Made by a program: the position numbers and the translations under genes. Source: Bryum argenteum (Eukaryota > Streptophyta > Bryopsida > Bryales > Bryaceae). Taken from it: DNA of 64,000 bases. The notes beneath the pieces are model-generated. The model did not search any database. It was not told where the DNA came from and saw nothing but the letters and a program-made list of their open reading frames with translations. Each line of letters opens with the position of its first letter. The stretch's first letter is position 1. The stretch spans positions 39,886,420 through 39,950,419 of the forward strand of contig CM073321.1 of NCBI GenBank assembly GCA_037043015.1, written 5' to 3'. Positions 6,195 to 45,954 of the stretch are shown here, in pieces.

Positions 6195-6735
6195 GACCTC
6201 TAGACGTTGTAGAATCGAACACAACTGGAATGGACTCAAATTCGGAATCACCAATACACAACAGACAATGAAAGGGTCGATATTATCGTTCTCCCTCTAT
6301 TTGAACACTTTCGAGTACCATGCGTTGGACCTAATATCTTTAATTGATCAGTAATTATAGCAACTGCAATGACGGCTCACGGAGCGCCATATATGACAGT
6401 ATCTGACAGATAATGCTAATCCAATTTTTAAATATACAGCCAGCTACTCTGACAAAGACGGCCGCCGTCACTTTTCCGAAATTAAAGACTGCACAATTTA
6501 ATGATCCTGCTTAATCTTGCTCATTCCCTGACATGGTCTAATTTAATAAAACAAACCTACTATGTACCTTAATTCACATTATTTACCAGTCAATTATGAA
6601 TTACTAACGGTACCGTCATAATCTACCAAATACAGACTCTTAGAAGCCTCTTCTTTATATTATAAATACATTCAAACAAGTTAAGTTTCTCCTACCGTCG
6701 CTGAACACATCTCTTCTCGCTTGCGATCTAGCACA

Positions 6736-9700
6736 ATGGATTCCGTTCACAACGTCGTAGAGATTAGTTCCAGCATTTCGTCCGCTCCTACACGCATTCC
6801 ACCTGGGTCTGATGGCGTGGCTGTTGTCACTCCTCAATGGCTTGCCCTTCGATTTGGATACGATGAGACTTCCTTATGGTTAGAACGCGAGGTACTAGAC
6901 CCGATTACTCTTCTTGTTCAAGACTCGAGTTTGAAGCACTGTCCCTACACGATAACAACAAAGCAGATTTGGAAGTTTAGACCAGGCAAATACCGCCTCT
7001 ATGGTATCACAGAGTCCGTCATGAACGCAAGTACTGTTCTCTTGACCCCGCGTACTTCTTCTACTATCTCGCATGCAGCTCCGCTCCTAGCTCGTGTCAA
7101 AATCGAACCAGGCCGTCGCGTTAGTATAGATTTGTCAGATTCCTCTAGCGACGAAAAAACATCTCCCGTCCAAACACGTCGCCCTGCGGCAAACCTCCCT
7201 TCCCCGAGTTCTGCTTCGATCCCCTCTGTTGATTTAAGTCCTTCGCCCTTCACACTGTCAGAGGCTATAAAACCCAAAAAAATTCTTCCTTCTCTTCTAA
7301 AACTGAGTTCCATGTCTGGTAGCAAAACTATCTTGAAGAAAATCAACTTCGAAACCATCCGTACGGTCTGCACCCCCTCACTTCCTCCGTCCTTCAATGG
7401 AGATGTTCTATACATTCTACCTCCCGTCACCCCCTCATCTGTACACTGGAATGCCAAGTCTATGGAGGGTATGGACAAGCGTTTCGATGGCCATGTGTGG
7501 ACGAGAACGATGACCACAAACATCAGCAACACCCTTGGCTTATCCTTTCGCTATTCAGGCTGTGTGGGTCATTTGCAGTGCCACAATCAAAATTGCGGTT
7601 TCTTGGAACGACCGGATCGGACTGCAGGAGTAAACGAGGTGGAGTTCGAAGGCATTATCAAAGATCCGTTTGCGATTGGCAAAGTACATCCACCATCCTC
7701 CACCATTGTCTGTAAGATTTACAAAGAACCTCCAGTCTGTGTTGCTCAGTGCTCCGCTAGAATCTTCTATGTCTTTGGGAAGGATGATCAGGAGCGTGCT
7801 TGTATTCATCTTGGTACCCACAAACACCCTGTTAAGGTCGGAGTGTATAGATGCACAAAGAAGAAGATAGATGAGCTACTAGAGGAGCATGTAGACCGAA
7901 ATCCACAAGCAACAGTTTCCAAAATCGTCATGGAAACTAGCAAAGATCTCTTAGGAAATATCCTACTCCGTCAGGAAGGTGATCCTATAACCTCGCAGCT
8001 TTCAATCCAAGAGTTAGAGCCAGTTTTCGAACAATGTAGAGAGTTGAACTCTCCTGCCATACGGCACCGTGTCTACACTTTCAGATATTTGCGCAGATAT
8101 GGAGTTTTGGATGGGATCACCAAGCTCATAGGGCTTAGCAAGTGAGCCTTTGTGCAACGAAACATGTTCCCCGGCCAAGGAGACGACTCCGACAAAGTCT
8201 TCATTTTCAAGATGTCCGAGGTCGGTCCTGCTAGCGGTGTTGACCTCGTCCGCCGTATGCAACCTGGCGGCAACCTCTCCCACGCTTGGATGATGTTCGA
8301 CCACGTCAAACGAGTCAAGAACTGGACCACGATGGCGTGCCACGTGTACGACTCCCGATACCAACGCATTCTAACTATTGCGTGTTGTGATTTCCAGTCC
8401 GAGGATAGAGAAGCTCAACTCGTCTTTTGGAAGAACCTTAACCATGTTATGGCTAGGCACGGAGTACCAAAGCCAGAGTTCCAAGGATTTATGGCTGACA
8501 GTGCTCAAGCCAATTGGAATGCTGTGCGCATCATTTATGGGTCGGGGAACCCTACAGTCTCCATGGAAGGCCGTGAACGAACGTGTTACTTCCATTGGAC
8601 GCAGTCCCTTGAGAAACACACCAAACAGTACATCGTTCACGAACTACAAGATCAACACAAGGTTCTTTGTAAGCAGTACAAAGACGCCCGCACCATGCAA
8701 GAGGAGGAGACTCGCTACTGGGCCATTCGAGCGTGGTGGTCCTCATCGAACGCCACTTCCGAAAGTGGGCTCCAACACCTCGGCCATTGGCTTGCCTACT
8801 GGCATTTCCGCTATAGACAATGGGGTGGATTTATGGAATTAGTGAGTTTCCTTACCTATACTTTTTATTATTTAATTATGATATTGTAATCTACTATTTT
8901 CTTTATATACGTAAATGATTCTATTTCTTTATTCTGGATTTCAAATAAACTGTGATGGGAAATATAATGCAGGAAAAAAAATACTCTCCAGAAGAGTTAG
9001 CGGAGATGCCGTCCTGTAACCTTGCTGAGACGGTACACAACAAATGGTCACAAGCCTCTGGCAATAAGGGAGGGGACCTCTACGTCGCCGCTGTTGACGA
9101 TTATGTACGCGCATTCCTCCAAGTAGTGGCTTATCATCAATTCAACAAGGGTGGCGAAGGTGGTTGTGGTCCATCTACAGAGGAACTTCAACTTCGCGCA
9201 GTTCGACGCAAAGCTCTTCGCACTGCTCAACGCAAGGCTCACCGTACAGGAGATCCATTGGATATCAACAAGGCAGTACTGAATTTTCCTGAAGCTCAAG
9301 TTTTCTGTACTCGTGACGCCCACTTGGAAGGAGCTGAGGTCTTTGGTACAAAGAAACGGAAGGCAAATGTTCCCATTGGAGCGGATGAAGAAACACATCG
9401 TCCTAATACCGTGAGCTTTTTACGTCCCCAAATCACGAGAAGGGTTACCCGAGCTTGTGCTGTGAGTTTGGGTGCTATCTACGAGGAAGAAGAAGTTCAA
9501 GAATGCCCTCAGGAACCATCTACCTCTACGGAACCGAGTATCCAACGCGTGACCTCGGTTCAAGAGACTAAGGTGAACGAGAGATTGTGGCACAGTTCTC
9601 GACTCAACGGCAACTCTTCCAAGGCTTGTTGGGCAAATATGGCAGTGACTAAGAAGAAATGTACATCACGCATAGTTCAGAACGGGAAGGCTACGCCGGC

Positions 9701-10439
9701 TCCTACTTACACTGGAATCTAGAAGCCTCCTCAGCGTCGCAAAGTTGAAGAACAATTCTTTTTTTGTGCAGACGATATTGAGAGATGCGTAAAGGGTTAT
9801 CGTCGGAGATGGATTGAGCAGTTCTCTCGGTCCCAAGATCGACCACCTATCCCTTCAGTGTGGCCTGTCAAAATAGGGACAAATCTGACACGTACCGAAA
9901 TCGAGGCGTTGGAGAATGCAGGATTCCAACTCCCACAGAAGGAGCGCCTTCCTATAAACCGGACATTCAATAATATTATCCCTCCACGGGACTTGTCACA
10001 CATCCCGGTGCCGGACGATGCGAACGTTTTCCCCAAATCTCGAAAATCGAAGAATCTCCGTCGAGTCACTTCTGCAACACCGAAGTTGATGAAGGGAGTC
10101 GATTCGGCTCGAGCTTTGCAAGCCACCATACTCAAGGTGACCATGATACCGCAGCCTGGTTTTGGTTCTATTGTTGACTTGGAGTCGGATTCGGGGTCAG
10201 TTTATCAAGTTTTAATAAGTGCATTGCCTAATTGTACTTGCCCAGTAATGAAGGACACACTTGCTAAGTTGGGTAGGAAAGGATGTCCATATAGACCCTG
10301 TAAGCACCTTTACTATATCTTTGTTAGGGTCTGTAATTTTGATGTTGATAGCGACCTTTTTATCCACGCGCCTACCTTCAGTTTCAATGAGGTGAAAAGG
10401 ATTCTAGAGTGTGGTGTCCTAGACCATGCCAGAGACTAA
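6736..10439 (+). pseudogene. MULE (Mutator-like) transposase
   Basis: Exons 6736-8841 and 8973-10439 flank a 131-bp GT-AG intron (GTGAGT...TGCAG). In order: a Ser/Thr-rich N-terminal third; a Cys/His cluster (HLQCHNQNCGF, about residue 275-285); a DDE core with the MULE pattern CHVYDSRYQRIL, then GFMADSAQANW, then CYFHWTQSLEKH; a helical region containing SCNLAETVHNKW; and a C-terminal SWIM-type zinc finger (CTCP...CKH, near 10230-10305). MULE transposases cut and paste their element, and the SWIM finger is usual for the plant Mutator group. Two stops break an otherwise continuous frame: TGA at 8143-8145 and TAG at 9720-9722, both explicable by one C-to-T change. The copy is therefore probably inactive. 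I could not find long terminal inverted repeats by eye. Confidence 0.85.
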
Positions 10440-11310
10440 AGGACACCCTACACATACTCTACATGTTCTACTATAATATTCTGTCTTTCCTATCTTATGT
10501 ACTATGATTTCACAATTTAGTGAAAATCAAAATATATAATTATACATGTTCCAAAACCAAATGTTCCTATTTAACAGATTTTATGCTTGTAAGTAGGTAC
10601 CATGCACAATGTAATGTTATCGTTTGGGGTAAAAACTGGCTCTATGTGCATCTCAAGCATGCATAATTGTAAAATTCTGTCTCCCAATTCCGCGGCTATA
10701 GGGTCCTAAATCCACGGTAATAAGTCAATAATATTCGAATATTCTCAAGAATATTCTTTCAAAAAATTAAAAAATTAAAAAAATGTTACATTTTCTTACT
10801 AAAAATACGAAATCACCGCTCAAAAATAAGAATTTCTGCAATCACCGCTCACCGCTCTACGCTCACCGCTCACACCCCGGCTACGTCCATCACGGGGACT
10901 AACTTGGAGAGCGACACTTACCAACCCCATGTTTAGAGATGCTCCAAAGCACGTTTGTCGTCGTCGTGCCAGCTCTGGTATATGGTGACGAACGCGAACT
11001 TGAATTTTCACGTCGCTGAAGCTTCAAAATCCGTTGCTCCAATGCATCGCGAACTGGAGGACAACTAACTCTGCACTCAAATCCATCGTGAGTCTGGCGC
11101 TTCCGTACTATGCGCCCGCCATTACACGAGGGTCACCGCCAGACTCATGAGGTGATAAACAAAGAGCCGGGGACTCGAAAATGACCGGTATGGGCACGAC
11201 TGCTGCAGTTGTCGCCTAAGTGCATTAAAAGACATAGAGAAATGTAAGTAAACTACGATTGAAGTTAAAAACTAAGAAAAACTCATAAATGAACTGCTTC
11301 AAGTATGTCA
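10440..11310. other. Non-coding stretch with TCACCGCTCA repeats
   Basis: AT-rich 3' flank of the MULE gene, then at 10815-10875 several copies of the word TCACCGCTC(A) close together, possibly the outer part of the element's terminus. No gene seen. Confidence 0.4.
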
Positions 11311-11313
11311 TAC

Positions 11314-11655
11314 CTGTACGGGAAGTGCATCATCAACTAACTCAGAATCATCGTAAAGCTTTCTTTGCGGAGCGCCACCTCGACTTGAATAGTCAATTAG
11401 GGTACGGGTCTTCAGCGGGGAAGGAGAACATGCAGAGTGTGGTCGCTTACTGCCAAAAGGAGGACTATCCACAACACCATCATCAATTGCCATTGTCGAG
11501 TAGTCCATAGTTGATTGTGCAGTAGCTGCTGAGTACATTATGTGGCCCATTCCACTCTGCGAAATTGAGTATTGTCCGTAGTCCAAAATTGAATCAGCAG
11601 AAGTAGCGCAACGGAAATCAAAATCATTGTCCGAAACCGAGACGGAATTGGACAC
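11314..11655 (-). CDS. Isolated exon, Ser-rich protein
   Basis: An open exon bounded by a good acceptor (ATCCAG, 11656-11657) and a good donor (CAG|GTATGA at 11314). It encodes a Ser/Asp-rich, probably disordered segment with words such as YGQYSISQSGMGH and a basic patch PFGSKRPHS. No domain recognised. It lies downstream of the FCP1-like gene's stop codon, so it belongs to another transcript or is an alternative 3' part of that one. Confidence 0.35.
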
Positions 11656-11921
11656 CTGGATACGAATTCATTTTAGAGGAATCATCAACAAGGATGATAT
11701 GCAATATGATATAACCAAATCAACTCGACGCGAGTTAAACCAATGCTGAGAGAACTAGCACCATCAAATACTACGATAAAATAAAGGGTCGGACACAAGC
11801 CCGCTCTCAAATGACATCAGTCCAAGAGGAGACATTAATATTGAAATCATTTATTATAATCTACACAATATACATGACAAATTTGAATCTTGTTTGGTGA
11901 GACCAATCTTGGTTAACAAGC

Positions 11922-13113
11922 CTAATCAAGCACTAGCTTCCTAGAAGCCTCTACGGCGTTAATAAGCTCATCGTATTCTGAAGTATCGAGCTCTTCAGAG
12001 AGCATTCTACGCCCAATGTTGTCTTCCCTACGGAAAGACAACAAGCCCTGACCGCGGCTTTGATGTAGACGTCGAATCCAAGGGAGGAGCTCGTCTACCA
12101 AGAATCTGTCAGATACATCATGCTCTGACCACGAGACTCGCAGTACGACATTCTCTGGTTCATTCACGACGTGCTTCTCACGGCTATCGTCGATGATGAT
12201 CGTGTCATGCTCATCAAACTTTGAGTTTAGACCATTGAAAAGCATATCCAGTGGTTTGAGGAAGAGATCCTTATTAGTCCCCTTCAACTTGAAGTTGGAC
12301 AACTTATTCCGCGGTCCACGAACCTTGACAACCTCACATGAGTTCTGCCCCCAAACAAGGCACGGGGGTGGCACACCCCGGAACAAGTAGTCACATATGG
12401 ACTTTGTGGTCCCATGAACCATCGAACTCCATACGGAGACGTATGCAACTTCACTCAACTCACGAAGGAAATCAAGGCAGAAGGGCCGAACGAAAACAGC
12501 CTTGGGACCAATCGGAGCGAGTAGGACAGAGGAATGTGCACTCGCGACCATGTTGTAAACTTGGTCCTTTGGCATGAATCTCTTCTCCTTGCAGACACAG
12601 AGGATACCGTTCAAGTCCAAGATGACATTGAGCCACTTGCATGGCACCCTTGAAGGAATAGAACGAGGGATATCCTCTACGGCTGCAACTACCGGACTGT
12701 GCGAATGACTCATCCCCTGTTCAGAAGGGGGGCAGACAAATGTGTATACAGTTAAGTACTGTACTGCCACATTTCGAGACTGACCATTTCTATAACACTA
12801 AGAAATCCCAAATCCAAACAATGCGATCACACCGAACTAATAAAGAAAGGATTGAATGAGATTTTGGAAAGGGATCAGCTTACCGGCGTCTCTGATTGAG
12901 TTTCAACTGTTTGTGAATCTCGTACAGCGGTCGAGGATGGAAGAGGAATGTGAATTTCGAGTAGGATTGAATCCGGAATGTGACCTTCATTGTGATCATC
13001 TTGCCGCGTGTTACTTGGCTCACCATGAAACGGACTCAAAGGACTAGTGTCTTTCATAGGGGGGACGTCATGAGACACACAAACATTCGGAACACTTCGC
13101 AAATCAATAGAGC
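11922..13113 (-). CDS. FCP1/NIF-type HAD phosphatase-like protein
   Basis: Two exons seen: 12884-13113 (acceptor TACGCAG, donor CCG|GTAAGC) and 11922-12716 (acceptor GAACAG), in phase; the 5' end is not identified. The second exon has the FCP1 homology pattern: motif I VILDLNGILC, the following VFVRPFCLDFLREL and VSVWSSM, and motif III TIIIDDSREKH. FCP1-type HAD enzymes dephosphorylate Ser/Thr, classically the RNA polymerase II tail. Here the second acid of the DxDx(T/V) loop is Asn (DLNG), as in a plant subgroup of FCP1-like proteins known from general experience, so phosphatase activity is doubtful. The frame is intact and ends in TAG. The introns and flanks contain the same palindrome as the ParB/methylase and DUF7869 genes nearby, at 11719 and 13323, linking them as possible cargo of one unit. 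Confidence 0.7.
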
Positions 13114-13229
13114 CTGCGTAGATATCAGAGGGAGAAAATGTGTAAGAAAATATGATTGTATTTCAAATTCTGCGTTCAAAAATGAGCGTCATATACAAAA
13201 AGTATTTACACGATGAACACCAAGTCCAA

Positions 13230-14220
13230 TCTAACAAAACTATCCTAGGGGAATATATATACTAGTCTATCAACAACTGTCGAAGGCTTCTACAGGCGAA
13301 CTTCCATTAACCGAATGAGAAGTTCAACTCGAGTCGAGTTAAATGAAAGACTAGATCGTGGAGTTCAACCTGATTCGGTAACGTTCCGATCGAGAGTCTG
13401 ATCCTGTGTTCCTATCTGCTCTTCCTCATCCACGGCCTTCCGTTCCAACTAAACTGGGTCCGATGGTGTGGAGCGACTTTATGGGCCTTGATCCCTAGAA
13501 ACAACTTGAGCGATGTTGCCCGCAGGTGAGGGAGCTGCAGTCGCCTGAGAAGGCGTGCCTTGGAGGGATGTGAACCGCCGAAACGGTTCACGCTTGTTTG
13601 AAACACTATATATAAGCATTAGACCAATATTTTTATGTTGAAAATACCCAATGGGGACATTTAGGCTAATTCCTTCGGGTTCCGGAATTTCTAAAATAAT
13701 TGGAGGGCTCTTGCTTAAATGGCCCAGTGGTTGTTTGTTCTATCCTAAATTAGTAATATTAACTTGCGTCTAGGTTTCAAGTCATGTTTTTGGGTTATGT
13801 TTTATTACTTTATCACTATTCATAAATGCTCAAAGGTCCTCCTAGCTAATAAACTAGGGAATTAGTAAACCATGCGGATGAAATACTGGATGAACAAGTT
13901 TCATCCGGCTGAACCGGATGAAATTCTACCACGTCCAAGTGCACGACTAGAGAGAGGAAGGAGAGTTAGGGTTGAGAGTTTTTTTTTAGAAGAGTGTGTG
14001 GAGAGGTGTGTGTGTGTGGAAGGTTTTTGGGAGATCTAAGATCTAGATCTTGTTTTTTTGGGGGCCGTTTTGGAATCTTTTTGCTTGTGGTTTTGTAGCA
14101 ATCGGTTTTAGATCTAGTTTGATGAGCATGTTTTGTTGGAAAGGGATTTTTGGTGAAGGAGAACCCTAGGGGTTTGGAAAGAGGAATGTGTGTGTGTTCT
14201 TGGGTAGGTAGAAGGGTCAA
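13230..14220. other. Non-coding stretch
   Basis: No gene supported. It holds one palindrome copy (13323-13344), a short GT-rich run (about 13990-14020), and generally AT-rich sequence leading into the 179-bp tandem repeat. Confidence 0.5.
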
Positions 14221-14221
14221 G

Positions 14222-14800
14222 GCGAAGGCGTGGTGGCCGTTGGAGTGAAGGAGGGTCGGCTGTAGCGGCAGATTCAAAGGCTGACTTTGAAGGGCGACAA
14301 CTCGAGATCTACAAAGACTAGAGGGTCAAACCTTGGTAATTCAGAAGCGCCTCCAAGCCCTCTTTCTAGCGATACTAAGTTCGCCCTCAGCGGATTGAGG
14401 ACAGAGGCGTGGTGGCAGTTGGAGCGAAGGAGGGTCGGCTGTAGCGGCAGATTCAAAGGCCGACTTTGAAAGGCGACAACTCAAGATCTACAAAGACTAG
14501 AGGAACAAAACTTGGTGATTCAGAAGCGTCTCCAAGCCCTCTTTCCAGCAATACTAGGCTCGCCCTCAGCGGATCGAGGACGGAGGCGTGGTGGCAGTTG
14601 GAGCGAAGGAGGGTCGGCTGTAGCAGCAGATTCGAAGGCCGGCTTTGAAGGGCGACAACTTGAGATCTACGAAGATTGGAGGGACGAGCTTTCGTGATTT
14701 GGAAGCGTCTCCAAGCCCTCTTTCCAGCAATACTAGGCTCGTCATCAGCGGATCAAGGATGGAGGCGTGGTGGCAGCTGGAGTGAAGGAGGGTCCAGCAG
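14222..14800. repeat. 179-bp tandem repeat, about 3.3 copies
   Basis: Units begin at the word GGCGTGGTGGC(C/A)G at about 14226, 14405, 14584 and 14764 (the last partial). Copies are about 90% alike by eye. Each contains GAGGGTCGGCTGTAGC, AGGGCGACAACTC, and CTCCAAGCCCTCTTTC. The period is 179-180 bp, not a multiple of three, and open frames differ between units, so it is not protein-coding. Confidence 0.85.
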
Positions 14801-15164
14801 TGGTCGGAGACAACGTGAAGGGAGCCCATCCCTTCTCAATTCCTTGATATTTGTGTTTTTTGCAATTGGTTTGGTTGTGTGGTTAGACATAGTAGAGATT
14901 GTGAACTTTATCCTAAAAAATGGCAATTTCATTGCCCAAAAATTGGTTGTGATGATTTAAATTGTGTTGCATGCTCTTGTCTTTGGTGTTGGCCTTGGAT
15001 TGGAATGGTTGTGCTTCGCTTCCCTTGCTGATTTAGATGATTGAATGCTAGAATACACTAAGAGTAAGGGTTGCGCGGAAGCGCTGCCCAAATTTTATGC
15101 TGAATTTACAAATTTAGTTTAAAATTTAGAGAATTTGGGACCAAGCGCGGAAGCGCTGCCCAAT

Positions 15165-18100
15165 TTAATTTCGAACTTCAAAGTTTAGGTTGAGAAGATT
15201 TGCTAAGATTGCTAGGTTGTCCATTGCTTGGGAGGTCAAATTGTTTGCATTCCTCCCCCACGGCCCGACTTGTGAGTTAGAACCGGAAGACCGGGATTTT
15301 AACCTCACAAGGGAACGTCGGGGAGATGCATGTCGAGCTGCACCGCTGTCGGAAGACTGAGTAGGCTCGTGGGTCAGGAGCAGAGGTTTACTATGACTTG
15401 GTTCGATGGAGAGGAGAGGCTTTGCATTCAGGTGCGACATTGCTTGGACTACCATCTCAGGCATTCTCGTGAAGGCCTCTGTCAACATAAACTTCCATCG
15501 TTGCTCATTCTCCTGTCTCTGGGCTCTGCGTTCCTCGCGCTCTCGAGCAAGCATTGCTTCAACATCCGCCCTTTGTCGCGCTTGCGCTTCCTCCTGCATT
15601 CTGACGAGCTTCTCCATCAGAGTTTCAACGGATAGTGACTCCCTTTTCCTCTTCTGAGGCGATGGCGTGGAAGCCCGAAGAGAGGTATCCGAGTAGCCTT
15701 GTTCCTGGGGACGAGGAAGATGAGAAGATGAGCCTCGTCCAGTTTGGGGCGTTACCGGGTGTTGGGAACCGTAGGCCTCAACATCCTGGACAGGATCGTC
15801 ATCGTCATCACTTGACCCGATTGCGATCGGACTTGGGTCATTCACGTCAAGTGGTAACTCTACTCCCCTTCCCCTTCTGCGTCTTCGTGGGGGGTGGTGG
15901 TGCTTCTAGTCTCTCCCTGGATAAGGAAGCCTCATCGATCGGGTACCCTTTTTCGAAATCTCGACGATCCAAGTTGAAGACATCCAAAGAAAGTCTGACA
16001 ACTTTGTCGTGCTCTTCGCTGGAGCTGATCGTGTAGTTCATCAGGGAACACATCTGCAAGTAGACACATCAAGAGATGCAACGTCAATCATATGAAAGTT
16101 TAACTCGAATCGAGTTGAAATGGAGGTGGCGTGTGAGAGCACGACCAGACTACTCTGCTGTGTGCATTCAACTCGAGTCGAGTTGAATACCAAATATAAA
16201 CTCTAAGTGCCATCAAACACCAAATTTAACTCGAGTCAAGTTAAATATAATAACGCATGCAAGAACATGATATCGTAGCATACTAAGTAATCCATTCAAC
16301 TCGAGTCGAATTGAATAGAGTTCAAGTTAGTGTAAAACGATCCCTGGTCACTGAGGTGCGCACTGAACTCGACTCGACTTAAATACAATTAGCATAGCAA
16401 GCAACAGAGTCATGGCGAACTATTCAACTCGAATCGAGTTGAAATACATAGGATATCCTTACCCAGGCCGCACAGTAGAGCTTCCCGCCTCCAAAAACAC
16501 TGAGGATCGCATCCCCTTCCTTGCAGAAGATATCAAGCAGCTTCAGGTAGAACTCCATCCTCAATTCCGTATTATAAATACGGTACTCGAGCTCGTTGTA
16601 TCTCTCGCAGATCTTGAACTGTGGAGTGTCGGGGGCCTGGAAGAACTTGGGGAGATTCGAAATCCTCAACTTCTGAGATTTTCGAAACAAGAAGAGGATC
16701 TGGACATGATCCTTGGCCCCTGCCCTCGACGAGGTTTGATCCTCGAGTCGCTCGTAAGTAGCCGGAACGTATTCCGCATACTCTATCTTGTAGTTTGCTC
16801 CGAACTCGCAAATATCGAGGTGATTCTTGATCTTCGCCACAGCATCCTTACTTCCGCAGATCCAAACCCAAACGGGGATTTCAGTTACCACGGGGTCCGT
16901 GATAGACTTTAAGACTTGGAGAACGTTCTAGAAGTAGGAGCCTGCTGACGAGCTCGATGACGCTGATTCCTCCTGTGCTCCGGGGATATTACGGAAGTCC
17001 ATTATTCCGACCTTGATTCTCTTAGCAGACTGTTCATTCCAAGAGTCATCGTGCCGTTCCCCTAGAGCATCGTCCTCCAGGTTGTAGGCCCTGAAGTTTG
17101 CTTCGCCCCTTGGAACCTGGAACTTCCCCTTGTTGGCGAGGAAGCATCTGAAGGACTCTGTTGCATACGGCGAGAGTTGCTCAAAGGACTTGTTCTTGTT
17201 GCTGGGGAATTTCGCCAGCGTGAAGAAGGATTTCCCGGGATTCGTGATGAGCACGTTCAGTGTAGCTGGAGTGATCTTAAAATCGGTCTTGAATTTCTTC
17301 CAGCTCTCCTTCCTGAAGTCCCCACTCGTGCTGAACAGCATTAAGTCAGGGCGCATGCTGTGAATCACGCGCTTCACGATGGTCTTCCTCTTGCAGCGCT
17401 CCAGCCAGTCGTAAGAGCTGTAGCAATCTACAAGCACACCCTTCATCTGCTTCAATGTGACTTTGGGATACTGATGTCGCCGTTTTGGGTTCGGTCTGTT
17501 CAGCATATGCTCGGCTAATCGCTTGATCTGGGCTTAGCTACAGTTTCCGATCCATTTGAAGAACACCCTAGTGAGCTGCCCATGATCAGTCTTCCATTTC
17601 CCCAACTCCTTCATCTTCCTTCATGTGTCTGGGTCGATGAGCTCCCCTTGGGATGCGGATGAGATAAGCTCAGACCAGACGTCGTAGACATCATTTGGAG
17701 CAGTGATGATTTTTACCTCATTTTGGATGTTGAGCTTCTCTATGGCCGCCTTGCTAGTTGTCACTCCTCTCTGGGCGTTCTTAACGTTGATGAGAGCAAA
17801 TCTAGTCCTGACAGCTTCCATGAACTCCTGTATCAACCGAGTATGATATTGAGTTAGATATCTAACTCGAGTCGAGGTGAAATAGGTTACAGCAGGAATG
17901 AAATCTAAAAATCATCGTTAGTAGTGTAGGACAGTATTCAACTCGGATCGAGTTGAATGGAGGTACACATACGTTGAAATTGTCCTTTGCAGGTTTCTTG
18001 CCCTTGTTGGGCCTCTGTGTCACAGTCGTGCCAACCTCAAGAGCCTCCTTCGGGTTCTCCGATCTACCGAGGCTTTCCCACAGCTCCCGCGCCCCGATTA

Positions 18101-18809
18101 TGTTTGTCGCCCACGTTGGATTTGTATTCATGAAGTGGTTGACCCTGTTGTAGAACGCGGAGATTCTCTGAATGATGGGCTTATCTTCGTTTCATACCAC
18201 GAAGTAGTCCCATGTCTTGAATGCATCCCTAATGCTAGCGTCTACATCGAGCCGGTTTTGCAACTGCTCGGATGCCTCGACGCAATGCTGTCCGTTGACT
18301 ATGTAGAACTCCCCGTCCTTTATCTCCTCCCAAGATCGGGGTTTAACGAGCTGATCCTTTGGGTAGACGCAGAGGGTGTTCTTCTTGCTCTTATCGGACA
18401 TCTCAATCAGGAAATGCATCGTGTGCTTGACTTTCTCCTGCTCGAGGTTTCGGATGTTCAGGTCCGCAGGGGGGGTAAAGAGACGCTCGATTGGAATCTC
18501 GTAAGTCACATCTGAGCCGAAGATGTATGAGTCTTGGCAAAGCCCCCAGTAGTTCTTGAAGGCATTCATGGACTCCTTGTAATCAACAACTTTGTCTACA
18601 TTGTCGATGGGTACTTCCGTCAAGGCCGACACTAAGCTCGCCTGTTCAATCTCAGTGGGGTCGGCCAGGGTCGACTTCTTCGTCGTGACTGATTTGAGCT
18701 TCTTTTGTGTCGGCCCCCGCTGAGCTGTGGACGGATTCGCCTTGCGCCTCTTAGATCCCGTCGCCTCAGGAGTCTGATATAGGATGGACTCGTGGCTGCC
18801 GCTTTGCAT
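15165..18809 (-). pseudogene. ParB-like / DNA-methylase-like fusion protein (copy 1, most complete)
   Basis: Exons 17973-18809, 16463-17827 and 15165-16053, all joined in phase by GT-AG introns; start ATG at 18809; about 1,030 codons. Residues 1-90 are basic and Ser/Thr-rich (SKRRKANPS). A ParB/Srx-like domain follows: IPIERLF..., then FYIVNGQHCVEAS, where the usual Arg of GxHR is Cys. The middle part is unrecognised. The C-terminal half has the class-beta methylase order: a motif-IV-like VGIMDFRNIP (DPPY not conserved), then LKLLDIFCKEGD followed by LSVFGGGKL, matching motif I FxGxG. A coiled-coil, Glu/Arg-rich tail ends the protein. ParB-methylase fusions are known in prokaryotes and phages. 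Damage: in-frame stops at 16928, 17534, 17621 and 18192, plus one frameshift in a G6 run at 15889-15894. The divergent neighbour at 19655 shares an 845-bp intergenic region full of palindromes. Confidence 0.65.
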
Positions 18810-19597
18810 GCTTACTTCCTACATCAGACGAAGGGGCGTCATTTGCATCTTCTTGCGTGACGTTACGAATCGAGTTAAATGTGGATTCCCAGATATTATG
18901 TGATACAATCTATATGTATCAGTGAATCTCATGGAATCCGAAATGCTGTATTCATGGGTCTTCACATTCAACTCGAATCGAGTTGAAATAGTTATTACCA
19001 AATGTCATAATGGGATGTTCCGATAATAGTGCGGATATTCAACTCGACTCGAGTATAATCCCGTTGTGGATATCCGTCAGCGTTCCTGGAATCACATCGT
19101 TTTTATTAGATTTAACTTGAATTGAGTTAACTGTGATTTTCCAGATATTTCGTGATGTAATTTATATGTATCGATATAACTCACGGACTCTGAAATGATA
19201 TAGTCGTGCGACTTGACATTCAACTCGAGTCGAGTTGATTTAGTCATCACCCACTGTCCTCTTGTTTGTCCCTGGGTGTATAAAATCTTGGTAATTCCGG
19301 TGTTTTACTAGAGTCTTGTCGAAGTTATCGGTTTAGATCTCGGGCTCGGATACGTGATATTGTAATCACCCTAACAGTATTTAACTCAAATCGAGTTAAA
19401 TCAAAATTAGCACATATTTAGAGATATACATTTCTGTGAAGTAGATTTGCTTCAATTATCTGTGGGCATTCAACTCGATTCGAGTTGAATTCATAGACAT
19501 CTTAGCTGGCAGAGAATTTATTCCAACATCTTGTCTACGTGTAAATAATTCTATTCGATTTCTGTCATTATTGTATTCAACTCGAGTCGAGTTGAAC
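16099..19597. repeat. Interspersed palindrome TCAACTCGAGTCGAGTTGA
   Basis: Sixteen copies in this span, at about 16099, 16167, 16225, 16295, 16363, 16422, 17862, 17937, 18861 (half), 18967, 19038, 19109, 19219, 19379, 19469 and 19576, plus two outliers at 11719 and 13323. Each is a 20-22 bp near-perfect inverted repeat. All copies fall in introns or in the intergenic region between the ParB/methylase and DUF7869 genes, with spacing mostly 58-110 bp where dense. They look like binding sites or a targeted short repeat. Substitutions within copies are mostly C/T or A/G exchanges. Confidence 0.9.
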
Positions 19598-19654
19598 CGC
19601 CACATATTCTTCTGTTCTTCAAGTCGCGTTCGTGATTAATTTGCAGACTCTACC

Positions 19655-22489
19655 ATGGCTGCTCAAGATGTTCAATTGCTTGGTGATTTTCCCTCTGATG
19701 AAGAGGTTGTGGAGCAACCTGAGGTTCCGAAAGACGTTCCAGTGTGTGAAGGTATCCCTCGGCGTCTTTGGGCTACAAAGTTCGTTACCCTTTACGGTGA
19801 CAAGGGTCGCCCTGTAGCGGAGGGCCTTTGTCAGAGCATCAGTTACGATCTCGTCCTCGGAAGCAACGGTCCACTTGGGCACTCCCGAGTCGCAGTTCAA
19901 ATCTCGAGGACCCTTGATGCCAGAGTGGTGCCAGATGAGTGGAGATATTCTGTCAGGGCGTGGCCGATCGATAAAGTCTTCTATAATGGGGCTAGTCTCA
20001 GAGACCATGAGATACGACACGATCATGACTCTCGTGTTGCACGTCTTGCGAGACCTCAGTCATTGAGTAGCCGGAGTTACAACAATACATCTAGGAACCC
20101 GCCTCCTGAAACATCCGTCAAATCCAAAGGCTTATAAACTCAGGAGTCTATCAATTCTGTCTCAAGCAAAGTATGCTGCACCAGGAACTGCGTTCAGCCC
20201 TTCCGGAGGGACAAGATCCGATGTTTCCGAGAGCGGATGTATAGTGGTACAACCTACCAATTCAGGTTTCACATGAAGCTTGACGTTCACAGGCAGGTTC
20301 ATCAAAATGCTGGCGGGAAGAGGGTGGTCACGGTTGAGGGAATCGATGTATGCTTGCCTGCGTGGAGACATATTGCTGGAGTGTCGGAGGCAACCTTTCA
20401 TTGGATTCAAACGTACGTGGCCGATGGCGTCATGGCCCATCCCCATGGAAATTTGTCTTTGCTTAAACAGCGCACGTCGCAGGCAACTGCAACCCTGCGT
20501 TGCATCCTGGAGAACTCTGCGGATCACATGCCGCACCGAACGAGGACACTAAAATCTGGAGAGAAGGTTGTATCCATGATTCTTCCCGCTACATGGAAAT
20601 GGAACAGTACCATCCCGAAAATCAACGCCGCAAACGAAGGCTTGGGTTTGAAGATGGTCTCACCATCTTCTCTGAGTAGAATTCGGAAGTTACACTTTCC
20701 TGAATTTGATGCGAAGAAACCCGGGGATAACTTTGCTCGGTGCTCCAAATGTGATCGGTTGCACACACTCCGTCGTGGCTCTATTCCTGGGTCGCAACAA
20801 GCACTACTTTGGGCAAAAAAGCTCGAGGTACACTTGGCTGCAGCCCGTGCTCATCGGGAGTTATATTATGCAAACAGGCATAGGTCAAAAACCTACCCGC
20901 ATGAGTGTTTGACCATTATGCATGACAAAATGGATCATGCGAAGACCGCTTCCCCTGTCTTTTCTCACAAGAGTAAGGAGCTCGATGGTTTGATGAAGCT
21001 ACCAGTATCCGTCACAGGAATGATCGCTCATGGCCACGGAGATGTACGCTACACACATTACGTTCTAGATATTTTCGCACACGATTCAAATTACACGGTG
21101 GGCTCTTTTGCTAAGCTGCTCCGAGATATAGAGTTGCCACCAAAGTACTCTTCGAGGGAGCTTTTTCTTCGGTCGAGGTCTGCACCTATCTTTGATGCTG
21201 TTCTCCAAGGTGCGGAGACTTGCGTATCGTCACTCCGTCCAGCACCAGCTGTTCCACTTCGAGGGATTTCTCTTCTGCCAATTCTCAATGTTCAGGTGGA
21301 CAATGCAGCAGGGGACAACAAGAATAGATATGTATTCTGTTTCTGGTCTCTCCTTGTTGCGAAGAAGATCTTCCGCGAGGTATATGTCAATTTCATGTTG
21401 GTTGGGCATTCCCATGATGACATCGATGCAATGTTTGGAAGGTGGGGCATGTTGTTGAGGAAAGACAATTTCCCCACTATTCCGTTACTCATGAAATCTT
21501 TCATGGACGTGGAATCTATTCCAGCCATCCCCCACCTTGTTGAAGAGGTGCCGGATTTTAAAGGATTTATCGATGGGTTTATCAGGGATGGAGGGGAAGC
21601 ACTTGTTGGTCATACAAAGGCACAACAATTCAAGTTCTTTTTGGATTCTACAGGTTGTCCTGTGATGAACTACAAGGTTTCGTGCACAGCAGAAGATTGG
21701 TTGCCAAATAATACAACCGGAATTAAGTTGTGGAGAGAGGACTTGGAAGGTCGTTCTTTGTGGCCACGTGGTGATCCAACTCCTACGACGCATCGTGCAA
21801 TGAGGGGTGTGGAGGACATTGTGAAGGGCATTTCTGGATTTATCAAGTACTGGGAGGCAATGTCTGATGAAGATAGAACTGGAGAGTATAGAAGACGCTA
21901 TGAACATCTTGTGTTCTATTGGCGCGCTGTGAAGGCAGCACTAGAGGTTCCCATTAAACCATCAAATGTTCTTCGGGACGGATTTTGGCCATTGTCCAGA
22001 ATAGATGCGACTTTGGAGGACCAATTTGCTGAAGATGGCGAACTTCGTGAGGAGTTTGGAGAAGATGAGGCATATGTTGGAGAGATCCGAGATCGCCCTC
22101 AACCATCTTTTCGTGTAGCTCGTGATGTTTATGAAGGATACTTTCTTGCTATTGGGCCTGCTGATGGTGACTCACGACCGGTGTGGATTGCTCGAGCGTT
22201 GTCAGATCCGAACATAAACCCCGAGCAGCCAAATTGCATCCTTATTCAATTCTTTCGGCCTACATCAAGGGATCAAGATGTGCAAGAGACCTACAATGGA
22301 TGGAATTCGGTCAAAGGATTGCGTTGGAAGGTTGACGATACTCAACCTCCTTTGTGGGAGAATACAGCTTCATTGATGACTTCATGGAAGTCAAAGGTGA
22401 AGAAGGATACAACGGAGTGCACTTTAAAAATTTCGGTGGATCAAATTAAAGTCATTCACGATACTATAGTTGAATTTTCTCATGCTTGA
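19655..22489 (+). pseudogene. DUF7869-type transposase-like protein (copy 1)
   Basis: The frame runs from the ATG at 19655 to a TGA at 22487-22489, about 944 codons, broken once by TAA at 20135-20137. The remaining 750 codons from ATG 20237 are intact. An N-terminal Cys/His-containing part (KVCCTRNC, around 20168) precedes a helical region, a CSKC motif near 20740, and an RNase H-like core with QVDNAAGDNKNRY and, 38 residues on, LVGHSHDDIDAMF. This pattern matches the uncharacterised DUF7869 family found in many plant and other eukaryotic genomes as multicopy, transposon-like genes; its chemistry has not been shown as far as I know. The acceptor-like TTTGCAG just before the ATG suggests a 5' UTR intron. 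It is divergent from the ParB/methylase gene. Confidence 0.7.
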
Positions 22490-22499
22490 AGGTCTTATA

Positions 22500-23030
22500 T
22501 GTATTGCAATCATATTTGTGTGTTGTAACAACTACATAGTCATGGCTTTGTCTTACGACTTAGAAATAATAATCTTTTGTTTCAAATTCAAAAGATTATA
22601 GGCATTTATAAATATAAAAGATATGTTAGACCAAATGATCGACAAGGATGTGTGGTTTAGGATGTTGGTAGTATCAATGGAATATGGAATATTTTCAAGT
22701 CACTTAGCTCACTTCGAGCAACACTTTGTTTGTGGTACTGGGTTTCATTTGAAATAAAAAATACATTGTACACATTTATGAAAATATATTTCTATACTAT
22801 ATTATAGTATTGATTTGTTCTTTCCATTTAGTACTTTTGTCGATTGATTTATGTGATTAAAAATGATAACATGTATTTAATTTGTTATAAAAGGTAGTAG
22901 TGGTTAGCACCACTGATGTTTGTGTGTGTCATACATGTCACAATTAAGGGTACGAGGTTGGTTGGTAGCAAATATTTTCCTGCCCGCTGAAGCTCACTTA
23001 GCAGTACCAAGTCATGTGTACATTTTAGCT
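22500..23030. other. AT-rich 3' flank
   Basis: No gene seen; possible 3' UTR of the preceding gene and unclassified AT-rich sequence. Confidence 0.5.
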
Positions 23031-23034
23031 GCTC

Positions 23035-23112
23035 AAACGAGTCCGATCGGAATCGAACTCGGACCACCTGCGTTAAACAGAGACTCCTTCTCATCCAACC
23101 ACTCAGCTCATG
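23035..23112 (-). repeat. tRNA-like sequence, probable SINE head
   Basis: On the minus strand the sequence has a pol III A-box-like word (TGAGCTGAGTGG) and, about 45 bases later, a B-box-like GAGTTCGATTCC. The intervening region has an anticodon-arm-like stretch with TTTAACG. The T-arm pairs imperfectly and there is no clean acceptor stem, so this is more likely a tRNA-derived SINE head than a working tRNA gene. The body would extend toward 22885, but its 3' end was not defined. Confidence 0.5.
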
Positions 23113-24337
23113 ACTTGGTGTCCATTTCAAAATTACTCCGGTCTTTATATTAATCAATTGGAAGTCCGGCTTAGAAACTCCACGGTGCACAAACTTTCCC
23201 CCATATTATACTATAATTTGAATGGAAACTTTAAGATTCATAACTTTCTAAGTTATTTGTGTACAAAAAAACATCAATCTAAAACCTCTCAATTTCATTT
23301 TGAGAGGATTATTAACTCTCAAAATAATGAATATGGTGTTAAGAATCCAAGTGCTGAGTTGTTGCCTTGTTGGCATCCTAGATGGATGTTGGTTGGATGA
23401 CTAAGGTATCTATAGGCCCTGACATTACCAGATGTATCGTAGATTCAACGACCATAATCTTCCGTTATCACATTAGAAGATCTACTTTGTACACAAACTT
23501 TGAATATAACAGAGAACGCCTAATTGACGGAAGCTGGAAAAAATCAAACAAACACAGCCCCATGTCACTGTGAAGGTTTTGTGCGTGATGGGTGACTAGT
23601 GCAAAGAAATAGAAGTTGGAGAAACTTGGTTATTATTATCTTTGAAAGGAGATTAAAATTGCCCTTGGCAGTGACAAATTGCAAGATTTCAAAATGCATG
23701 TGTATCGAGAAGTTCAACTAGTAAAGAAGGTCCATTTTTAAATCTCCAATCTGAATATATCAATACTTCATGATCTTGGAACTATTGCATATTTCTTGTG
23801 CAGATACATTGAACTAACAAAAGTGTATTGTAATCATGTACATCAATCGTAGGAAAAAGAAGACTATGATGGTGATTGATGTCTGAACACGTGCAGTGGT
23901 ACGACTTATTACTCAAGATTGATCAAGTGGAAGCAAAGAAGCAATCCCTTTTGACCTTATCCTCGTCAGCTTTGGTTCCTCGACAATAAAACTTCTCTAA
24001 AATCTACAAAATTCACGAATATGAGCACTTAGGCTGACGCATTTGTTGGTTGGTGTGATGTAGCATCGGCACTCTTGCATTTACTCAGAATATGCAAAAA
24101 CTTGCATAGCCAAGTGGTTGTAGACATTCCTTTGGCCGCTAATATAAGAGAGAGTGCACTACGTTTGAAATTAATGGGATGCATATCATTCTTTCTCCAA
24201 TTTGATCTTCGTTCAAACAATAATAAGCTTGTACGAGTGGCCCCTTGCAAGTACTTTAGCTTCTGCCGAGTACGGTGAGCAGGCACCACGAGTGATCACC
24301 TGAAGTCTCCGATTATCAGAGTTTCCAGTAGAGAGAG
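23113..24337. other. Non-coding stretch with one arm of a direct repeat
   Basis: No gene supported. The segment at about 23800-23930 is repeated, roughly 85% alike, at about 24367-24500; both start at GTGCA(G/T)ATACATTGAACTA. Confidence 0.6.
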
Positions 24338-37006: not shown

Positions 37007-39883
37007 CTAATGGCAAGTGCGACAGTAGTCGATTGTGTCGCGAAAAAGGGTCGGCCACCAATATCCGGCATCTAGAATTTTTTGAACCGTGATGTCGTGG
37101 GAAAAATGACCGCCCGCGTTGCCTTTGTGTAATTCTTGCAGGATATTCCGACTCTGTTCAATGGTCAGTACCAAACAAAGGCGGTTATCTTTGCCGAGGC
37201 GATGAAGGCGGTTTTTTATAAGTTGGTACGGGATTGCCTTGTGAGCCAAGCATTTGCGTTCCTCCTTCGGCATCGACAGTAGAAACGTGCCAGTCCGTAG
37301 GTAGTCGATGATCGGCTGGGACCAGTCGGGGTCGACTCCAAACAACTGGGCGTCCGTCGTTTGGTCGTGTATGCCGATGGCGGGCTCCGCTCCCTCGTTT
37401 CGTGATAGTGCATCTGCAATCCCATGGGTTTTGCCTGACCTGTAGACTGCTGTAAAATTGAACTCGAGGAACAGCAGCAACCAAGGGGCGAGTCGACCGG
37501 ACACTTGAGGTTTATTGATTAAGTACTGAAGAGCAATATGGTCGACAAAAAACACGAAACAATTCCCAAGTAGGTAATGTCGGAATTTATTTACCGCATA
37601 TACCGTGGCAAGTGCCTCTTTTTCCGTGGTCGTATAGTTCTTCTCGGCTTTGCTGAGTAGTCGGGAGGCGTAGGCGATGGTTTGGTCGATCTTGCCTGTC
37701 CGGTTCTGAGCCAGAAGTGCGCCGACTGCAATGTCGGAAGGATCTGTGTGGATGTGAAATTTGAGGGACCACTCGACACCGATGAGTATCGGGGCGGATC
37801 GGTATTGCTCTTTAATAATCGTAAAGGCTTCCTCGCACTTGGTCGTCCAAACAAAAGGTTCGTTCTTTTGAGTTAAGCGAGTAATCGGCTCTATAATGGT
37901 GGCGTAGTTCTTGATGAAGCAGCGGTTGAATTGTGCTAATCCAGCGGTTGAATGGTGCCGGCATGTCGACCAAAGCTTGGATTTTCTTGGGATCTGGAAA
38001 CTTGCCTTCTTTGCCGACGATGTAGCCAAGTATGACGCCGGAGGAGACATAAAAAATATATATTTCCGGGTTCAGGCTAACCCAGTACTGTCGACAGCGC
38101 TCGAACACCAGTCGGAGCTTCAGAAGGTGGAAGTTGACGTCGCTGTAGACGCTAAAATCATCAAGGAATAATTTCATGAAGTCACCCAGGTACTCTTGAA
38201 ACACCTGGTTGACAATCCGTTGGTAGGTCGGGGGTGCGTTCTTCAATCCAAAAGGCATCACGACCCATACATATGCACCCCATTCGGTGATAAAAGCTGT
38301 CTTTGGCCGATCTGTCGGGTGGATGCGGACTTGATGGTAGCCCAAAAAACAGTCGATGAAGGAGTATGCCTCGTACCCGATAACAGCGTCAAGGACTTCG
38401 TCGGTAAAAGGTAAGGGGTAGGGATCCTTCTTGGTCGCAGCATTTAGCCGTCGAAAATCGACGCAGATGCGGAGTTTGCCGTTTTTCTTGGGAACGACAA
38501 CAATGGGAGATAACCAGGACGCCTGGTCGATAGGGGCGATGATTCCTGCGGTGAGGAGTCGTTCGAGGTCGTCCTTGACGGCTTTAGCATAATTGGGATT
38601 CATGCGGTACCTGGCTTGGTGGCTGGCTGAGATGGTCGGGTCGAGTTTGATTCGGTGGGTCGCGACGTGCTCGGGGATGCCTTTAAGGTCGTCGTAGGAG
38701 AAGGCGAATACGTCGATGAATACTTTGAACAAGGCCGTCGTACTTGCTTTTAATTTGGGTCGGATATTGGTGTTGAGCTTGAGGACCTTCGGGTCGGTCG
38801 CAATGCCAACATTGACTAGGTCGAGGCGGTCGGCTTCGTTATGGCTCCAATGTGCGATGTCCATGGTCTGAAGTTTACCCTGGATTGGGGCGTTGTCGTC
38901 GGGCATCGACCCCGGAAAATGGCGGATTGTATGCATTCTGTCGTTGCTGCTGTCCTGTGCGGGGTTGAGTTGGTCGGTCGGGTCCATGTAGTGTGTTGCT
39001 AATGCATGGCAGTCGATCGTCCCTAGGGTATATAATGTTGGGTCTGAGGCGAGCAAAACCTCTTCTTCCTCGTCTGTGATGCCCTCGATAAAGTTGTAGC
39101 AGATGAGGGCATGGGGCGTAACCGCTTCCATACCTAATTGGCGATTAATTTTCACCGTTCTGATAGTACCATTTTCCATGATCTGGACTTCGTTGTTGCC
39201 CCAATCGTGGATCACCTTGGCATGTCGGAGCCGGGTCGACCCAGTAGAAGTCGATAGTCGGATTTGACTGTCGAATAGTCGAGGACGATTAAGGTAACTG
39301 TATAGGGAATACTGTGGATGGAGATTTTCACATTGCGGATAAGGCCTTTGGGTTTGGCCAGAGTGCCATTCACCATCTTGAGATTGAATGGTGCCGGAGA
39401 TGGTTTTGGTAAACCAAGGCGGTGGCATTCGTCCTCGGTAATGACGTTGACACCCGATCCTCCGTCGATGAGAACGCCATCGACTACGTTTTTGCCCACG
39501 GAAACCGATATCACCGGCATGTGCCGGTCGACAACCGTCGTGGATGCGATGGTGATGTTGTTGTCGAGAGGAGGGCTTGAAGGACCATGAGCTGGCTGCG
39601 CGCTGTCGGGAGCGAGGCGAGATCGGAGAGCCGACTGTAGTGACGGGGAGAGTCGTAGTAAATCCCTCAAGGATACCTAAATTTTGCAATTGTCGACTTG
39701 TTGCAGGAGGTGAGCAGGTACACGGGTGTCATTCTCAAAGCTGGATGTTGTCGACTGTCCAGGCGAAAGAGGATGCTGGGGGAGAATACTTGCATCCCAG
39801 GCGGAGGGTGAGGACGGCGCGGTAATAGGGTTACCCGCGCGGGGTTCCAGTTCCTCCTGAAGGGATCGAACTTGGTGTATCAT
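37007..39883 (-). pseudogene. Protease, reverse transcriptase and RNase H of the Ty3 element
   Basis: A protease-like domain (ISVSVGKNVVDGVLIDGGSG) ends in LLLGRP, where a one-base loss near 39230 shifts the frame before LRHAKVIHDWG. Reverse transcriptase follows: WLSPIVVVPKKNGKLRICVD, YPLPFTDEVLD, VVMPFGLKNAPPTYQR and the catalytic FLDDFSVY. A short loss or shift near 37970 precedes RNase H (HTDPSDIAVGALLAQ, YTTTEKEALATVYAV, FFVDHIALQYL, GKTHGIADALSR) and the integrase zinc finger. The active-site DD pair is kept. A TAG at 39677-39679 separates the Gag-proximal part from protease. Confidence 0.93.
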
Positions 39884-43126: not shown

Positions 43127-44311
43127 CTGTAAGCTCCTGGTTTTGTGGTACAGGGACAACTTAGCGGCATAGAATGTCTCCGGAATATCATCAAATAGAT
43201 CGGCTACCTAGTGGGTCCTCGTTTCAAGAAACAAGAGTGGAATGAGGTGTTTGTCCAAGACTTTTCCCTCCAAGATACGGTTGAAACGCTCATTGCTCGC
43301 AGGAACGTACTGCACAGACTTCGACTTGTACTCATCCTTGAACGCATTGAAATACACAACGGCCTGGCAATTTCAATCGGTGGTCTCTCTAGTCGTCATG
43401 ATTTTTTCTGGAGGGATCATACACCGAATCCTTCCAAGCATTTAGGAAGTCATTGCAGTAGACATTGGACGTATCGTCCACTCTACTACTGTGGCCCGGG
43501 ACGCATCTGAGGTCGATAATGCCCAACGCGCACCTACCATCGTCCCAAGTGTACCCATTATTTAAGCCCCTGAATTGGAATGTCTCAGCATCAAGTATTC
43601 GTGTGCGAAGAGCCGGAGTTGGCAGCGAAAAATCCCCTTTGACATCCAAACTTTTCGTGAAGAACTCTGCTGCGTACTCGGAGATCTCCTCCGATCTCTT
43701 GTTCTTTGTCCTCTTCTGGCGGTAGTCGCTGAAGAAAGAGTCCCCCGTCACGGAAAGGAGCACCGACATAGTCTGCCGATTAACGTTGTGATCGAACAGG
43801 TTCCACTTTTCAACGACAAACTTATTCGCATTGTCTAATCACCCCAGTGCTGGCTTGATGTTGTGGAACTCTCTGGCAACACATTTTTTCCTCATGCGCT
43901 TCTCCATCCACATCTTTATCGAAACGCACTCCAAGTAGTTGACCTTCGGTTCTTCAAGGACATCTTGGGATACGGTAGGTCCCGATTGGGAGTCTTATTC
44001 AGAAGATGTTGCGCAAGTGTCTTTAAGTCGTGCTCCTCCAATCCCGACATGCACTTAAAGGTATCGCGAGTCAAGACGACCTCTTTGGCTTTCGACTCCC
44101 AGTCATGCGTCCAATTGAAAGACTCGCAAGTATCGGGGACGATCAATTCTCCTAGCCCATTTGCAATGATAACGTCGGACCACAGCTGCTATACTTCATT
44201 GGAAGCAGTGATGATTTCCAATTTGTTGAGAAGGACCGCTGGCTTTGAGAGCTTGTCGGGTGATTTGGTGTTGATACTTATGAAGCGTTTCACCATGGCT
44301 TCTTCAAAATC
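43127..44311 (-). pseudogene. ParB/methylase-like protein copy 2, middle and methylase part, disrupted
   Basis: Starts at the acceptor CTTCAG with DFEEAMVKRF, aligning with EFMEAVRTRF in copy 1, and continues through KLEIITASNE, a region shifted by one base near 43970, then the motif-IV-like LGIIDLRCVPG (copy 1: VGIMDFRNIPG) and SKSVQYVPASNERF. The retrotransposon LTR begins at 43126, inside the methylase-like region and before motif I. The ParB part that should lie upstream (to the right) is missing; the DUF7869 copy 2 lies there instead. In-frame stops: TAG 43208, TGA 43373, TGA 43839, TAG 44189. The two copies show which parts of the family are conserved. Confidence 0.65.
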
Positions 44312-45933: not shown

Positions 45934-45954
45934 GTGTACCCAGGGTTGTCAGGA

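Follow-up and report, generated by a model that had tools for sequence, protein, structure and literature searches.

We analyzed a window of 64,000 nucleotides from the streptophyte Bryum argenteum (assembly GCA_037043015.1, contig CM073321.1, positions 39,886,420 to 39,950,419 of the forward strand), which contains a degraded copy of a giant DNA transposon. The element carries a gene for a protein with a ParB-like N-terminal part and a methylase-like C-terminal part, together with arrays of 19-bp palindromes. The reading that we favor, with a probability of roughly 0.43, is that the element encodes a ParB-like accessory protein that is bound to the element's own parS-like palindrome arrays. 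In the mechanism that we propose, the gene probably descends from a prokaryote-type ParB-methylase fusion, and the methylase-like half, its catalysis probably lost, would be retained to read DNA or to serve as a scaffold. The protein would bind the palindromes, most likely as a dimer, in the introns and between the divergent genes, like ParB on parS, and would coat or bridge the element DNA, controlling expression or keeping host silencing off. We infer that the protein binds the palindromes, that it has lost catalysis, and that the element is affected in this way; the ParB and methylase ancestries are weakly supported by sequence similarity.

The gene sits inside a cut-and-paste DNA transposon of ~17.2 kb. 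Two copies, extended to ~30 kb, gave full elements that are alignable end to end: A (17.2 kb, within C1:39034176-39064076, C1 being the contig that holds the window) and B (16.3 kb). Their terminal inverted repeats (TIRs) are 26 bp long and start AACACCATATTC, with AACGCC instead at one B end; the ends of A are identical, and those of B differ at two positions. Both copies, each with both ends read, have 4-bp target site duplications (TSDs), CTTT and TGAT. The ParB-like gene and a DUF7869 gene, likely the transposase of the element, lie together in one element in both A and B, in divergent orientation, and on opposite strands of the window (minus and plus, respectively). An earlier reading of the window from its letters alone (hereafter, the first-pass annotation) had suggested spread by transposons, which the TIRs, the TSDs, and the DUF7869 gene in the same element bear out. 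The break at 18858 had raised the possibility that the two genes came from separate elements, and A and B rule this out. The main features of the window copy are as follows.

10978 to 23340, unstranded: degraded copy of the ~17.2-kb DNA transposon, from comparison with full copies A and B
13370 to 13568, minus strand: remainder of the last exon, end approximate, from copy comparison and the spliced exon model
15311 to 16053, minus strand: first part of the last exon (MCSLMNYTIS...), from the spliced exon model
16054 to 16462, minus strand: intron 2, 409 nt, with six non-overlapping palindromes, from the spliced exon model
16100 to 16442, unstranded: array of 19-bp palindromes in intron 2, from the site search
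16463 to 17827, minus strand: exon C, 1365 nt, encoding the methylase-like part (DFRNIPG, GDAILSVFGGGKL) and interrupted by in-frame stops in the window copy
17828 to 17972, minus strand: intron 1, 145 nt, with two palindromes, from the spliced exon model
17973 to 18857, minus strand: exon N with the box FYIVNGQHCVEAS, its 5' part removed by a deletion at 18858
18968 to 19595, unstranded: 19-bp palindromes TCAACTCGANTCGAGTTGA arrayed in the spacer of the divergent gene pair, from the site search
19640 to 22489, plus strand: DUF7869 gene, likely transposase (Pfam PF25273, expectation value [E] = 5.1e-39), split over two frames near 20137
23315 to 23340, minus strand: right TIR, AACACCATATTCATTATTTTGAGAGT read inward, from comparison with A and B

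The spliced gene forms one frame in which exon N contributes at least 475 codons, exon C 455, and the last exon ~318, giving a protein of ~1250 amino acids (aa) or more; the model covers these three exons, and exons further upstream lie outside it. The four motifs quoted by the first-pass annotation (the exon N box listed above, MDFRNIP, LDIFCKEGD, and FGGGKL) are all present on the minus strand of 15165-18818 in the order given, also along the spliced exons, and the introns that it had proposed are real, with GT..AG borders (145 and 409 nt long in the window copy). Its interval for the gene, 15165 to 18809, does hold the motifs and yet takes in only part of the gene, whose 5' end is lost at 18858 and into which an insert (13569-15310) has come. 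Intron 1 measures 145 nt in all 15 parsed copies and intron 2 408-409 nt in 13 of the 15. Of 21 copies, 12 have an exon C of exactly 1365 nt, and of six copies tested, three (L010, L011, and L018) are stop-free in both exon N and exon C.

The gene family is under purifying selection. Between pairs of those 12 copies, exon C has a median ratio of nonsynonymous to synonymous substitution rates (dN/dS) of 0.25 and its methylase-like part one of 0.22, the lowest value; exon N has 0.31 and its ParB part 0.35 (9 of 21 copies, those with a 1427-nt stretch). Since part of the divergence within pairs arose by drift once copies had inserted, the gene was probably under tighter constraint while active than these values show. 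The exon family comprises, among the best-listed matches, 40 genomic places including the window, the others being 89-97% identical over ~600 bp, and paralogues number 520 genomic candidates, 150 of them scored. Given these many copies, the paralogues, and median dN/dS values of 0.22-0.35, the gene is not a chance frame. The window copy itself is a pseudogene of this selected family, since its 5' end is lost, its last exon is split, and it has in-frame stops, one of them in exon N after YFVV.

Evidence for a candidate target comes from the palindromes. In the window, there are 16 matches to CAACTCGANTCGAGTTG at up to three mismatches (0.25 expected), all of them inside the element. Copy A has 38 sites of 19 bp at up to four mismatches, or 36 once two overlapping ones are dropped. 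None of these 36 falls in a definable exon, though such exons make up 44% of the element; by our own arithmetic, the chance of no exonic site under even placement is ~1e-9. Paralogues bear another palindrome, TTAGCTCGANTCGAGCTAA, and L033 bears a third, looser type. Across the 258.8-Mb genome, to which all genome-wide counts refer, there are 927 exact sites for TCAACTCGANTCGAGTTGA and 6373 for TTAGCTCGANTCGAGCTAA, with positions listed for the first places of each pattern. Exact mixed sites, with one arm of each kind, occur 16 times genome-wide, each backwards control gives 0, and one L033-type pattern occurs 32 times. The two arms of the palindrome thus co-vary, the pattern to be expected if a dimer binds there. 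With a ParB-like binder, the placement of the sites in non-coding DNA of the element, their tracking of the element family, and their association with the ParB-like gene would all be accounted for.

The palindrome core (16100-19595; L034-L038) contains GANTC with the center base free, and the core of both palindromes also contains TCGA. At the center of exact family-1 sites in 20 fetched copies, we counted A 38, C 38, G 82, and T 21 times. Both GANTC and TCGA are known as prokaryotic adenine methylase sites, GANTC being the site of CcrM-type methylases. The GANTC core may have been inherited from an ancestral target, or the resemblance may be coincidental. A fixed helical spacing of the palindromes was considered (52-53 bp in L038 and most of L035) and dropped, as other arrays are spaced at ~33, 35, 44, and 46 bp.

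The N-terminal part has a ParB box that reads FYIVNGQHCVEASEQL in the window and FR(I/V)IDGQHHV(E/M)AAK in paralogues L034-L038. For all four exon-N queries, the best PHROG match was phrog_1033, "ParB-like partition protein," weak each time and at the same place (E = 0.08 for the window, 0.077 for L034, 0.0069 for L035, and 0.048 for L036). In profile alignment with the ParB parts of ten phage ParB-methylase fusions, the N-terminal part scored 26.3, on the ParB box, and no shuffle of 150 reached this value (maximum 23.4). Against the methylase parts of the fusions, the same ParB profile scored 14.2, which 41 of 100 shuffles reached, so this control behaved. A genome-wide profile search with PF02195 (ParB_N) returned a single place, on C4, at E = 1.5; the three phage fusions tested also stayed under the PF02195 cut-off, yet with E of 2e-5 to 5e-5. 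From the box, the concordant PHROG matches, and a published algal parallel, ParB ancestry of the N-terminal part is plausible, not proven.

In the C-terminal part, the expected site of motif IV (CDLGLIDL or VGIMDF) comes first; after a middle stretch, the site of motif I (GDAILSVFGG or GGKFLSIMGG) follows, and then, beyond an intron, MCSLMNYTIS or MCQAETYVVIS. This is the order of the canonical motifs in class-beta methylases, although the sequence similarity is weak, and hhalign placed motif I in register in four of four comparisons, the targets of which overlap. The score of the methylase part was reached by 0 of 150 shuffles against family 3 (described below), 0 of 150 against 21 sequences combined, and 5 of 150 against the phage fusions alone. 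As a negative control, alignment with the ParB parts of the fusions gave 12.7, reached by 55 of 100 shuffles, as it should. Two of the three negative controls thus behaved (41/100 and 55/100) and one, a ParB control, failed, so the 0/150 results call for caution. No family piece scanned matched PF01555 (N6_N4_Mtase) above the curated cut-off, and in Pfam, PHROG, and NCBIfam the methylase-like part met only unrelated or unnamed families, at E of 0.04 or worse. Relatives were confirmed neither in IMG/VR (three queries) nor, for the ParB-like part, in prokaryote genomes. We consider descent of the C-terminal part from a methylase likely, not proven. For the class-beta methylase part that the first-pass annotation had proposed, the motif order and the motif-I register agree, PF01555 gives no match, and the shuffle counts differ by target.

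The replacement of the catalytic motif, another claim of the first-pass annotation, proved general. The catalytic motif of PF01555 methylases is (D/N/S)PP(Y/F/W), and the strand of motif I usually ends in an acidic residue. A DPPY-type motif is absent from all 21 family-1 copies and all six paralogues. In its place, 19 of the 21 family-1 copies have D-(F/I)-R-(N/T)-(I/L)-P-G (NFRNLPG in L012 and DFQNLPG in L024), and five of the six paralogues have DLR(A/S/C)VPG (VLRSVLG in L037). Where the motif-I strand ends, both families have S, and L037 has L. Families in which about one third of the residues agree have both retained the altered motif, which fits a new role better than decay. The methylase-like half has probably lost catalysis, and a non-catalytic reader domain appears likeliest, given that D-(F/I/L)-R-x-(I/L/V)-P-G stands where a DPPY-type motif would be.

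The same genome holds a family that may be a bridge to the main one. Genome-wide, PF01555 matched 32 places, 2 of them above the cut-off and 29 outside C1, and these matches revealed family 3 (L040, L041, and L063). Like the main family, family 3 has an NHR..AW ParB-like box (L040 and L041) followed by a methylase part, and apparent introns. Unlike the main family, it matches PF01555 with E of 3.5e-6 (above the cut-off) and 8.1e-5 (below it), and it has DTPF (L040) or DIPE (L041) as motif IV and ASTG as motif I. A search for palindromes (9-bp arms, up to one mismatch) found none in the family 3 pieces. By its PF01555 matches, family 3 is nearer to real methylases, and it is possibly catalytic. 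Its loci lie on C4, C6, and C10.

Several results weigh against our reading of a ParB-like binder. First, nine methylases that lack a ParB part gave the ParB profile a score of 26.2 (25.3 untrimmed), reached by none of 100 shuffles, and since this control equaled the 26.3 of the fusions, the test is not specific. Second, PF02195 matches no family copy at its curated cut-off; for the ParB/Srx-like domain of the first-pass annotation, weak phrog_1033 matches in four of four queries stand beside this lack of a Pfam match and a profile alignment that is not specific. Third, against nine ordinary methylases alone, 30 of 150 shuffles reached the score of the methylase part. Fourth, sequence searches of the PDB returned nothing credible (best E 0.46), and AlphaFold models had a predicted local distance difference test (pLDDT) value of 40.1 for the methylase-like part and 38.0 for the ParB-like part, too low for fold searches, so the structure prediction that the first-pass annotation had put forward as a check neither supports nor refutes either fold. 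Finally, palindromes are also found upstream of the DUF7869 gene (18968-19595), and the DUF7869 protein could be the binder.

We regard this last alternative, in which the DUF7869 transposase binds the palindromes, in the way that transposases bind subterminal repeats, and the function of the ParB-like protein lies elsewhere, as unlikely. As both proteins may differ from family to family, co-variation by itself cannot identify the reader. Transposase sites usually lie near element ends, whereas copy A has no palindrome within ~1.36 kb of its left end or ~3.75 kb of its right end; moreover, both introns of the ParB-like gene hold several sites.

A second alternative is a methylase, divergent but still active on adenine N6 or cytosine N4, whose targets are the palindromes of its own element. 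It would fit the dN/dS values, which are lowest in the methylase-like part, the free center base of exact family-1 sites, as in GANTC, and the predicted N4C/N6A methylases of published algal transposon relatives, as far as the accessible text of PMC12477816 goes. Against it stand the loss of the DPPY-type motif from every copy and paralogue inspected, the S or L in place of the usual acidic residue, and the fact that GANTC comes with the palindrome core anyway and is sometimes missing from L033-type sites; on balance we think it quite unlikely. Least probable of all are hairpins in RNA or DNA (for splicing, termination, or as small-RNA decoys) that act without an element protein: compensated changes in both arms are expected for a stem as well, but a 9-bp stem round a single central base leaves hardly any loop, and sites occur in intergenic DNA too. 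The ParB-like binder can be extended to a plant-lineage transposon superfamily with a parS-like system, in which a ParB-derived protein, its methylase half turned into a non-catalytic sequence reader, coats thousands of family-specific 19-bp palindromes in introns and promoters and each family recognizes only its own copies; this extension we hold to be doubtful.

Further features of the window bear on the damage to this copy and on its neighbors.

11925 to 12797, minus strand: NIF/FCP1-like phosphatase open reading frame (ORF) (Pfam PF03031, E = 4.3e-14)
13569 to 15310, unstranded: insert in the last exon, 1742 bp, resembling a solo long terminal repeat (LTR), with TG..CA ends and a 5-bp duplication, AGGGA
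18858 to 18866, unstranded: junction of a ~5.9-kb internal deletion relative to the full copies, A 14858 joined to A 20805
43226 to 44317, minus strand: fragment of a distant exon C paralogue (IDLRCVPG), pieces at 30-38% aa identity
44767 to 45948, minus strand: DUF7869 fragment beside the exon C paralogue (PF25273, E = 9.7e-20)

The window copy has lost its left ~0.45 kb, including the left TIR, and the ~5.9 kb between the ParB-like and DUF7869 genes. Compared by Blast with 20 other fetched copies, the window region is collinear with 16 over ~12.2-13.57 kb (for L016, one of these 16, over the last 0.3 kb of that stretch only) and 15.31-18.86 kb; the 1742-bp insert, which contains three ~179-bp tandem repeats, is missing from the 16 of the 20 that align on both its sides. 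The NIF/FCP1-like ORF is part of the same element, being matched in A and B, and its domain is possibly a captured host gene. Phosphatases of this family usually have DxD, and the ORF reads DLNG at that place. The second copy that the first-pass annotation had reported in the window is real (minus strand, 44317-43226), with IDLRCVPG at the place equivalent to the altered motif. In this second remnant (43226-45948), the exon C paralogue and the DUF7869 fragment are co-oriented, unlike the divergent order of the first element. Elsewhere in the window, long frames at 6685-10439, 37007-39728, 46864-49539, and 58814-59452 resemble, by eye, MULE-, Gypsy-, hAT-, and Tc1-like elements. The element families crowd on C1, which makes up 17% of the genome and holds 30 of the 40 best-listed exon places and 122 of the 150 paralogue places listed; C1 may be a sex chromosome or another low-recombination chromosome.

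ParB-methylase proteins of green and red algae have reportedly been described before, in Iyer 2011 and Petroll 2025. In its 4-bp TSDs (CTTT and TGAT) and 26-bp TIRs, found in two copies, the element agrees with the Sola superfamily; Sola2 transposons are described, in the accessible text of PMC3627910, as having short TIRs and AT-rich 4-bp target duplications. Transposon proteins of the ParB-methylase type are a known kind, since algal cases are in print: according to the accessible text of PMC12477816, the 21.5-kb Ectocarpus Sola1 transposon Sola1-1_Ec32 encodes a 1104-aa ParB-like and N4C/N6A methylase protein opposite its transposase, and the authors propose self-marking and cite green and red algal cases. 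As described there, it shares with our element a gene in a giant DNA transposon, opposite the (likely) transposase, with a ParB-like part before a methylase-like part, in proteins of 1104 aa there and ~1250 aa or more here. The Bryum argenteum element differs from this description in the streptophyte host, DUF7869 as likely transposase, the replaced catalytic motif, the NIF-like gene, and the palindrome arrays, palindromes being unmentioned in the accessible text of PMC12477816. The first-pass annotation had called the layout unusual for a plant-like genome, which is overstated, given the algal transposon fusions described in that text. Its term "plant-like" fits a match of the genome to the LEAFY SAM-domain profile PF01698 (E = 1.1e-28), a family not known outside streptophytes; 14 control genomes gave no match, a comparison of little weight since those of them that are named are prokaryotes.

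The methylase of Natrialba phage PhiCh1 and its nine phage relatives likewise have ParB box, motif IV, and motif I in this order, and their best profile alignments with the main family fall on the ParB box and motif I. They differ in that PF01555 matches three of three tested with E of 3.4e-35 to 7.4e-27, that PhiCh1 keeps TDPPY, and that each phage fusion is one uninterrupted frame. With the ParB-parS partition system, the element shares a ParB-like domain encoded beside arrays of palindromic sites; unlike that system, it is a eukaryotic transposon. Among the titles and abstract openings surveyed, most subscription papers being outside the search, there was no further report of such a protein or of the palindromes. 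Transposons with DNA-modifying or DNA-marking proteins bear on how own copies are told from host DNA and how silencing is evaded. Here, both the proposed reader and its candidate targets are visible in sequence, and the latter are short, exact, family-specific, and plentiful (927 and 6,373 exact sites). Relative to the known systems, what is new is the streptophyte host, the altered conserved motif, and the arrays of 19-bp palindromes whose arms co-vary family by family.

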